Program-made: the position numbers and the translations under genes
The notes under the pieces: generated by a model
Told to the model about the DNA's origin: nothing
Seen by the model: the letters and a program-made list of their open reading frames with translations, nothing else
Database searches by the model: none
Source: SAR202 cluster bacterium bin22
GTDB taxonomy: Bacteria; Chloroflexota; Dehalococcoidia; Lucifugimonadales; UBA3495
Assembly: GCA_002238505.1 (NCBI GenBank)
Contig: MPMM01000001.1
Coordinates: forward strand, 186,001-250,000
Direction of reading: 5' to 3'
DNA length: 64,000 nucleotides
Shown here: positions 1,079-2,245 of the stretch, one piece after another
Layout of the letters: every line of letters starts with the position of its first letter
Position numbering within the stretch: position 1 is the stretch's first letter

Positions 1079-1198
1079 AGTGGCTATCGTGAACATTCTT
1101 GGCAAGGACCTGCTATTGGGGTAAATGAGCTAAACCAACATCCTTCCGACTCCGGTCCGGCGACCCTGGACGCAATTCACGGGTTATTCCAGGAAGCC

Positions 1199-1462
1199 GT
1201 GGCCGAAGACTCTTCCCTCTCTCTCCTCAGGGGCTTCAAGGTCGACTTTTCCGGGAATCCGGAGTTCCACAAAATTTACCTGGCCATCAGGTGCCAGTGC
1301 GGCACGGCCGGGCTGCTCAGCGTGGAGGTGGCCATGGACAAGACGCTGCCCGAAGTGAGAGACGCCATGCCTAGCCTCCTCGAAAACCTCCAGGTCAAGG
1401 CTGCCATGTTCAGAAACATGTCCTGCGAAATGCACACCCGAATGCGACAAGGTAAGCTATAA
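1199..1462 (+). CDS. Small hypothetical protein with CxC and CxxH motifs
   Basis: I do not recognise this family. From the GTG at 1199 it encodes 87 residues containing IRCQCGTAG and, near the end, MSCEMHTRM. The CxC and CxxH pairs could bind a metal. The predicted structure alternates strand and helix (SVEVAMDKTLPEV, then SLLENLQVKAAMF). The reading frame is the same as that of the Rid gene and stays open from the Rid stop (TAG, 1076-1078), so an earlier start is possible: in-frame sequence from about 1121 (NELNQHPSD...) reads like protein but has no ATG, GTG or TTG. It ends just before a TATAAT box and the selenoprotein pair, so it could share their redox or metal context, though this is a guess. 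Confidence 0.5.
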   Translation: MAEDSSLSLLRGFKVDFSGNPEFHKIYLAIRCQCGTAGLLSVEVAMDKTLPEVRDAMPSLLENLQVKAAMFRNMSCEMHTRMRQGKL

Positions 1463-1545: not shown

Positions 1546-1965
1546 TTGCAAAAAAAGTTGACCCTTGACCAGGCGTTAAAGGGGACCAAGACCTTTTCCG
1601 AAAAATACGTGGAGCGTGGACCTTACGAATTTTTTCCAGAGCAGGAAGTAGTCGAGGTTGTACAGCAGGGGTTGGCCGAGAACCAGGTCAACCAAGGCTA
1701 TCGTTATTGCCCTTGAATGCCCCTCAGCGGCGATCCCGTCGAGGACCGCAAAAAGATATGCCCCTGCGACCGGCACCATGAAGACATCAAGCGAGACGGC
1801 TTTTGCATTTGAATGTTCTTCGTAAGCGAAGAGTTTCTTCGCAAGTATGAGCAGGGCGAGGACTTTGTCCAGACAATTGACGAAGCGGTGAAGCCCGGAG
1901 AAGGGCTGTTTGACCAGGACTACCAGTCCAAGGCCGATTTCAAAGGCGCCCAGGAAAGTGACTAG
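1546..1965 (+). CDS. Ferredoxin-thioredoxin reductase catalytic (beta) chain, predicted selenoprotein with two Sec
   Basis: Reading through two in-frame TGA codons gives one 139-residue protein ending at TAG. It has the FTR catalytic-chain signature: GYRYCPU at 51-57, GDPVEDRKKICPC with Cys 72 and 74, then DGFCIUMFF with Cys87 and U89. In the family, Cys 55, 74, 76 and 85 (cyanobacterial numbering) hold the 4Fe-4S cluster, and the second Cys of the first and third pairs (57 and 87) form the disulfide that reduces thioredoxin. Here the four ligands are Cys, and exactly the two redox positions are UGA (1714-1716 and 1810-1812). FTR takes one electron at a time from ferredoxin, so this enzyme would have a diselenide at its active site. 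The start is a TTG with AGGGGG nine bases upstream. Each UGA has a GU-loop hairpin 21 bases downstream. No FTR variable chain is seen, as expected for non-photosynthetic FTRs. It is followed by a Sec-redoxin. The alternative, two nonsense mutations landing on precisely these codons, is unlikely. Confidence 0.88.
1727..1749 (+). promoter_or_regulatory. Candidate bacterial SECIS element for UGA at 1714
   Basis: Stem GCGG (1727-1730) pairs with CCGC (1746-1749). After a three-base 5' bulge, TCC pairs with GGA around the loop CGUCGA (1737-1742). The loop starts 21 bases after the UGA and holds GU. A competing hairpin pairs 1722-1725 with 1741-1744. The first fold has the same loop spacing as the other UGA sites here, which favours it. 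Confidence 0.55.
1826..1842 (+). promoter_or_regulatory. Candidate bacterial SECIS element for UGA at 1810
   Basis: A perfect 7-bp stem (GCGAAGA with TCTTCGC) closes the loop GUU. The 17-base hairpin begins 14 bases after the UGA and its loop starts at 21 bases. Its size and position resemble the minimal upper stem-loop of the E. coli fdhF SECIS. An overlapping alternative hairpin pairs 1817-1822 with 1827-1832. Confidence 0.65.
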
Positions 1966-2008: not shown

Positions 2009-2245
2009 ATGGACATAACCGTTTATACCTCCGCAGTTTGAGGCCCCTGCCACATGGTGAAAGTGTATCTTTCACGCAAAGGGCTGGAATTCACGGAAAG
2101 AAACGTATCTGAGGACCAGGATGCCCTGGACTCCTTGTTGGCCCTCGGCATACGGAGTACCCCGGTGACCGTGATTGGCGACCAGAATGTGGTGGGCTAC
2201 AGCCCCCCCAAGCTGGAAGCTGCTCTCAAGGCCGCAAGCGCCTAG
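2009..2245 (+). CDS. Glutaredoxin/NrdH-like redoxin, predicted selenoprotein (UGPC active site)
   Basis: Reading through one TGA (2039-2041) gives a 78-residue glutaredoxin-fold protein: MDITVYTSAVUGPCHMVKVY, with Sec at 11 and Cys at 14 replacing the usual CxxC, then the cis-proline segment STPVTVIGD, then VVGYSPPKLEAAL at the C terminus. It has all the landmarks and length of NrdH-type redoxins. The ATG has AAGGAGAG seven bases upstream. A caller that treats TGA as stop would begin at the internal ATG at 2054 and lose the active site. It lies 43 bases after the FTR-like gene, so it is the obvious substrate of that enzyme and would pass electrons on to acceptors such as ribonucleotide reductase or peroxiredoxins. 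None of these acceptors is in the window. Confidence 0.9.
2057..2075 (+). promoter_or_regulatory. Candidate bacterial SECIS element for UGA at 2039
   Basis: A perfect 7-bp stem (GTGAAAG with CTTTCAC) closes the loop UGUAU. The stem begins 16 bases after the UGA and the loop 23 bases after it, with GU in the loop. It is the cleanest of the four hairpins. Confidence 0.75.

Follow-up and report, generated by a model that had tools for sequence, protein, structure and literature searches.

Ferredoxin-thioredoxin reductase (FTR) couples the one-electron chemistry of ferredoxin to the two-electron chemistry of a disulfide at a single cluster. In the Synechocystis and spinach enzymes, the cluster is held by the first cysteine of each outer pair in the signature and by both cysteines of the middle pair, and the redox disulfide is formed by Cys57 and Cys87. 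The plant and cyanobacterial FTRs (PDB 1DJ7 and 2PU9) carry the signature CPC...CPC...CxC with cysteine at both redox positions, form a heterodimer with a variable chain, act on thioredoxin and draw on a photosynthetic electron source. An FTR-fold catalytic domain with cluster and disulfide cysteines is also found in non-phototrophs, namely in a fusion from Desulfotalea psychrophila (7PWE), where a glutaredoxin (Grx) is paired with a ferredoxin disulfide reductase (FDR), and in the ferredoxin-dependent FDR of Methanosarcina acetivorans (4TPU). A title cited in PMC5704485 further points to an FDR that delivers electrons to methanogen ribonucleotide reductase.

Selenocysteine (Sec) forms of FTR have already been listed. 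Zhang and Gladyshev (2008, PMC2398784) reported two Sec FTR reads, one of them an ocean read in which Sec replaces both redox cysteines, and drew its SECIS. Two reviews list the Sec FTR family (PMC13188914, with two Sec, and PMC9312934), and NCBIfam holds an equivalog model for the double-Sec form (NF041072). Selenoproteins that reduce selenoproteins also have a precedent, to judge by the title ‘Tandem use of selenocysteine’ (Kim et al., 2011; cited in PMC13188914), in a Sec-glutaredoxin serving Sec-MsrA.

Here we describe a locus within 64,000 nucleotides of the genome of SAR202 cluster bacterium bin22 (contig MPMM01000001.1, positions 186,001 to 250,000; hereafter the window), in which a double-Sec FTR gene stands between the genes for a small CxC/CxxH protein and a Sec-glutaredoxin. 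Taken alone, the FTR is a member of an already known, uncharacterised family: both redox-active cysteines are replaced by Sec as in NF041072 and the 2008 read, and the protein itself is no different. A first-pass annotation of this sequence had known of no characterised enzyme of this kind and allowed that surveys might list one; the surveys do, and its claim to novelty is not supported. What appears to be new is the trio setting, which the literature searched does not mention for the NF041072 family. The FTR shares signature and fold with the plant and cyanobacterial enzymes. Relative to 7PWE and 4TPU, the window has separate FTR and glutaredoxin genes plus a third dedicated protein, and Sec at both FTR redox sites as well as at the first glutaredoxin position. 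Compared with the Sec-MsrA pair as its title presents it, a selenoprotein would likewise reduce a selenoprotein, but the Sec-glutaredoxin would here be fed by a ferredoxin-dependent double selenoprotein. Our literature search, with most subscription papers outside its reach, found no description of the trio, of the CxC/CxxH family or of an FTR-Grx selenoprotein operon, and no account of two UGAs conserved this widely together with SECIS under selection; the adjacent selenoprotein genes mentioned in the GOS paper are pairs other than FTR-Grx.

Results

Two in-frame UGA codons at the redox positions of an FTR

A single frame runs from TTG 1546 to TAG 1963-1965 with TGA 1714 and TGA 1810 as its sole internal stops; translation bore out the first-pass annotation on this point. 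Homologues start with ATG/Met at the position aligned to this TTG. Reading TGA as U gives a product of 139 residues that includes U57 and U89, and its motifs follow one another as C55-P-U57, C72-P-C74 and C87-I-U89, the order of the FTR signature. Pfam FeThRed_B (PF02943) covers residues 11-106 (E 8.5e-23, 80.9 bits against a cut-off of 22) and NCBIfam NF041072 ‘FtrB_double_U’ scores 228.9 bits against a curated cut-off of 160. Solved FTR/FDR chains in the PDB match the protein in sequence and can be aligned over the signature, and the AlphaFold2 model (mean pLDDT 83, core above 90) retrieves 7pwe, 4tpu, 1dj7 and 2puk as the best Foldseek matches.

Positions C55, C57, C72, C74, C87 and C89 are invariant across 48 aligned FTRs when U is written as C. 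Alignment with Cys-containing homologues places the UGAs exactly at the two redox-active positions, as had been proposed; U57 and U89 coincide with Cys57 and Cys87 of the redox disulfide in Synechocystis and spinach. The best reading of 1546-1965, which the sequence supports, is a predicted FTR catalytic chain with Sec at both redox-active positions. The coordinates of this gene and of its neighbours are collected in Table 1.

Table 1. Coordinates within the window of the three genes, their UGA codons and the associated stem-loops.
Feature	Position	Strand	Evidence and remarks
Small protein with invariant CxC and CxxH	1124..1462	+	Start uncertain, first in-frame table-11 start GTG 1199; co-occurrence with double-Sec FTR
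Predicted FTR catalytic chain, Sec at both redox-active positions (FtrB_double_U)	1546..1965	+	Translation, Pfam, NCBIfam, homologues, Foldseek
UGA codon, Sec57	1714..1716	+	Aligned with nucleophilic Cys57 of Synechocystis FTR; homologues have Cys
SECIS for UGA57	1730..1749	+	GCGAUCC-CGUCGA-GGACCGC; GU in loop, one A.C mismatch in window copy
UGA codon, Sec89	1810..1812	+	Aligned with cluster-side Cys87 of Synechocystis FTR; homologues have Cys
SECIS for UGA89	1826..1842	+	GCGAAG-AGUUU-CUUCGC; all 38 distinct copies paired
Sec-glutaredoxin / NrdH-like protein, U11-G-P-C14	2009..2245	+	Pfam Glutaredoxin; Sec form in 46/46 double-Sec-FTR genomes
UGA codon, Sec11 of glutaredoxin	2039..2041	+	UGA in all 40 distinct relatives read
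SECIS of glutaredoxin gene	2057..2075	+	GUGAAAG-UGUAU-CUUUCAC; pairing and synonymous constraint

Selenocysteine machinery and genetic code

The genome (4.39 Mb in 58 contigs, 97% complete) contains every sel gene that the first-pass annotation had named for a check: selA (541.7 bits, cut-off 267.9), selB (348.3 bits, cut-off 242.25), tRNA-Sec or selC with anticodon TCA (67.5 bits, gathering threshold 47) and selD (L057, C57:40142-41065, minus strand). Because all four are present, the UGAs in the FTR gene are predicted to encode selenocysteine. The selD gene itself contains one in-frame TGA, and its product, selenophosphate synthetase, is probably a selenoprotein. Of the window's 41 longest non-overlapping ORFs, 13 end at TGA as an ordinary stop, so that a genome-wide code change is not the case; reassignment of UGA to Cys or Trp was ruled out on this basis. 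A motif scan of the window for more Sec codons, made by eye and not exhaustive, gave nothing convincing beyond 1714, 1810 and 2039.

Sec and Cys states among FTR relatives

We surveyed 250 genomes of the same order. The double-Sec FTR gene is present in 46, with both TGAs inside the matched region in 45; the remaining copy is fragmentary and shows a single TGA. All 41 distinct copies that were read carry both UGAs, at identities down to about 65%, and the TGAs at both sites agree among independent assemblies. Together with the coding constraint, and the additional synonymous-site constraint at the stem, that follow each UGA, this conservation bears out the earlier argument that chance would not have placed the pair.

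Homologues were also expected to interchange Cys and UGA at columns 57 and 89, and they do: across the phylum, FTR relatives show all four combinations at the two redox sites (UU, UC, CU and CC). The UU state belongs to the clade of the window and arises once in the tree (support 98/97). UC is represented by L062 (G073:C292:3184-3459, minus strand), whose motifs read CPU...CRC; it has a stem like that of UGA57 in the same place, in a genome with selA. CC occurs in 31 rows and CU in 14, for example as CPC...CHU or CYU; to explain CU, three or more changes are required along well-supported branches of a tree built on about 100 columns, in which some branches are long and deep relations unsure. 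Several CU forms have a stem with a GGUC loop after their single UGA. selA exceeded its cut-off in all 20 genomes tested, single-Sec genomes among them. The CU-type FTRs (L036, L038, L040, L041, L042, L044, L047, L048, L083, L084 and L086-L089) have their Sec in the third motif only, on the side facing the cluster.

Stem-loops kept by selection on synonymous sites

An Rfam search for SECIS elements gave no match, and a synonymous-codon test was therefore applied. In the ungapped alignment, a stem of 6-7 bp with GU in its loop starts 16-18 nt downstream of each UGA. The consensus stems are GCGAUCC-NGUNGA-GGAUCGC for UGA57, GCGAAG-AGUUU-CUUCGC for UGA89 and GUGAAAG-UGUAY-CUUUCAC for the glutaredoxin gene. 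As a null, we used 200 randomisations that preserved each protein and drew codon usage from the remainder of the genes. Full pairing was found in 27 of 40 distinct copies for UGA57 (null maximum 5), in 38 of 38 for UGA89 (null maximum 5) and in 36 of 38 for the glutaredoxin stem (null maximum 3). For UGA57, 95% of cells were paired, against 58% in protein-preserving shuffles; the 13 mismatched copies include that of the window, and eight other copies have an A.C mismatch at the same pair as the window copy.

Synonymous diversity relative to expectation falls to 0.60 at FTR codons 58-68 and to 0.43 at codons 90-100, compared with 0.93-0.95 elsewhere in the gene. The glutaredoxin gene gives 0.22 at codons 17-23 and 0.86-0.89 further in. 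Pairing in the UGA89 stem is retained through compensatory substitutions that alter the protein, Ser to Asn in L109 and Arg to His in L139. These copies are related sequences and the counts are not independent events; the within-gene contrast is nonetheless clear. The three SECIS stems are kept by selection on synonymous sites, beyond what the protein requires.

A conserved trio of genes

Two features lie beyond the first-pass annotation: the UGA at 2039, a third Sec codon, in the gene that follows the FTR, and a conserved gene at about 1124-1462. The product of the downstream gene begins MDITVYTSAV-U-GPCH and matches Pfam Glutaredoxin (PF00462) at 7.5e-13 (48.9 bits, cut-off 22.9). Against the NCBIfam subfamilies it falls below every cut-off, with 41.8 of 66 bits for Uxx-star (NF041212) and 57.6 of 85.75 for NrdH (TIGR02194). 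A genome without the double-Sec FTR (G041) has a Cys form of the protein at 55% identity. The Sec-glutaredoxin gene lies downstream of the FTR on the same strand in 44 of the 46 genomes, at a median gap of 113 nt; since it is a divergent neighbour in G514 and lies about 16 kb away in G544, the operon is not obligatory. The window copy has Val immediately before Sec (SAVUGPC, 2036-2038), where every other copy read has Gly (GUGPC).

The upstream protein has 40 homologues at 31-90% identity, throughout which C41, C43, C85, H88, E52, K57 and F80 are invariant. Pfam and NCBIfam searches placed it in no family; NCBIfam Asr1405/Asl0597 was considered and rejected, as it matched weakly in 2 of 40 members only (best E 0.006). 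In the structural model (mean pLDDT 89), a beta-hairpin turn carries CxC and a helix opens with CxxH, an arrangement that, as modelled, suits a metal site. A Foldseek search with this model returned nothing below E 0.001, and the best VIA-align Z of 5.6 fell on unrelated proteins, under the level of a shared fold. Cysteine-desulfurase domains were among the weak structural matches and were not accepted as evidence.

Of the 46 double-Sec-FTR genomes, 45 encode the CxC/CxxH protein, which turned up in none of the remaining 204 (Fisher p about 1e-49, shared ancestry ignored). The genes are consecutive in 42 of the 46, and the trio is spread across many families of the order. Further out, the neighbouring genes differ between lineages and are conserved in close relatives only. 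The trio itself includes no ferredoxin gene, and no gene for an FTR variable chain was noted next to it.

Proposed function and alternatives

We propose, with a probability of roughly 0.78, that the three genes constitute a ferredoxin-driven, selenium-based disulfide-reduction module in which the FTR passes electrons to the Sec-glutaredoxin, the CxC/CxxH protein being a third, dedicated component. More specifically, Cys55, Cys72, Cys74 and Cys87 of the FTR would hold the [4Fe-4S] cluster, and Sec57 and Sec89, in place of the redox cysteines, would form a diselenide when oxidised. Low-potential ferredoxin would deliver electrons to the cluster, and the diselenide would be reduced in two one-electron steps. 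From known FTR chemistry we infer that the exposed Sec57 would attack the Sec11-Cys14 bond of the Sec-glutaredoxin while the cluster-side Sec89 stays with the cluster iron; the Sec-glutaredoxin would then hand the electrons on to target proteins. The part of the CxC/CxxH protein is the least certain: because its three cysteines and one histidine resemble a metal or Fe-S site, it may supply the FTR with ferredoxin or electrons, or may be a target.

The neighbouring Sec-glutaredoxin is a more likely physiological partner of the FTR than a classical thioredoxin, since it is present in all 46 genomes, lies directly downstream in 44 and has a counterpart in the natural fusion 7pwe. We are more tentative, at somewhat less than even odds, about the fuller scheme of a ferredoxin-driven relay from Fe-S cluster to diselenide to selenenylsulfide, with an undescribed and possibly metal- or Fe-S-binding CxC...CxxH family as its obligatory third component.

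Thioredoxins are the substrates of plant and cyanobacterial FTRs (PMC6006212), and the double-Sec FTR could serve ordinary thioredoxins here too, the Sec-glutaredoxin and the CxC/CxxH protein being co-transcribed without working with it. The two genomes in which the glutaredoxin gene is not adjacent downstream would agree with that explanation, but across the 250 genomes the three proteins are almost always either present together or missing together, and 7pwe shows that a Grx-FDR fusion occurs in nature, which makes it unlikely in our view. Slightly less probable again is a module for detoxification, handling for example metal, selenium or arsenic, in which the CxC/CxxH protein would be a partner that binds metal and not one that carries electrons. 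The invariant 3Cys-1His set would fit such a role, and several UXX-star and other selenoproteins are tied to metal handling (review PMC13188914); the conserved neighbourhood, however, includes no metal transport or resistance gene, and the neighbours past the trio depend on lineage. Finally, short genes with at least two in-frame UGAs could reflect a pseudogene, a sequencing error or a reassigned stop codon instead of selenocysteine. Given 41 distinct intact copies with identical UGAs, SECIS under selection, sel genes in the genome and TGA terminating ORFs of the window in the usual way, we consider this highly improbable.

The trio, read as a disulfide-reduction module, points to an undescribed pathway in uncultured Chloroflexota, SAR202 included, and the strict co-occurrence of the three proteins suggests a probable function for the uncharacterised CxC/CxxH family. 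Naturally occurring FTRs that have no Sec, one Sec at either redox position or two Sec allow direct tests of what each position contributes and of how selenium acts beside a [4Fe-4S] cluster.

Other thiol-related genes in the genome

Two homologues of NADPH-type thioredoxin reductase are encoded (L091, C16:567329-568222, and L092, C4:99489-100379), one of them over the cut-off; the trio would thus add to an NADPH route and not be the sole route of disulfide reduction. Separately, a likely selenoprotein gene lies about 1.4 kb to the left of the window (L004:7781-8569; C16:183780-184568, minus strand). Its product has an N-terminal glutaredoxin domain (Pfam Glutaredoxin 5.4e-10), with TGA in the motif NPG-U-FSC, fused to a DinB-superfamily domain (DinB_2 5.7e-7; the match to mycothiol transferase is weak). 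A gene for such a glutaredoxin-DinB selenoprotein is also found near the FTR in G001 and G007.
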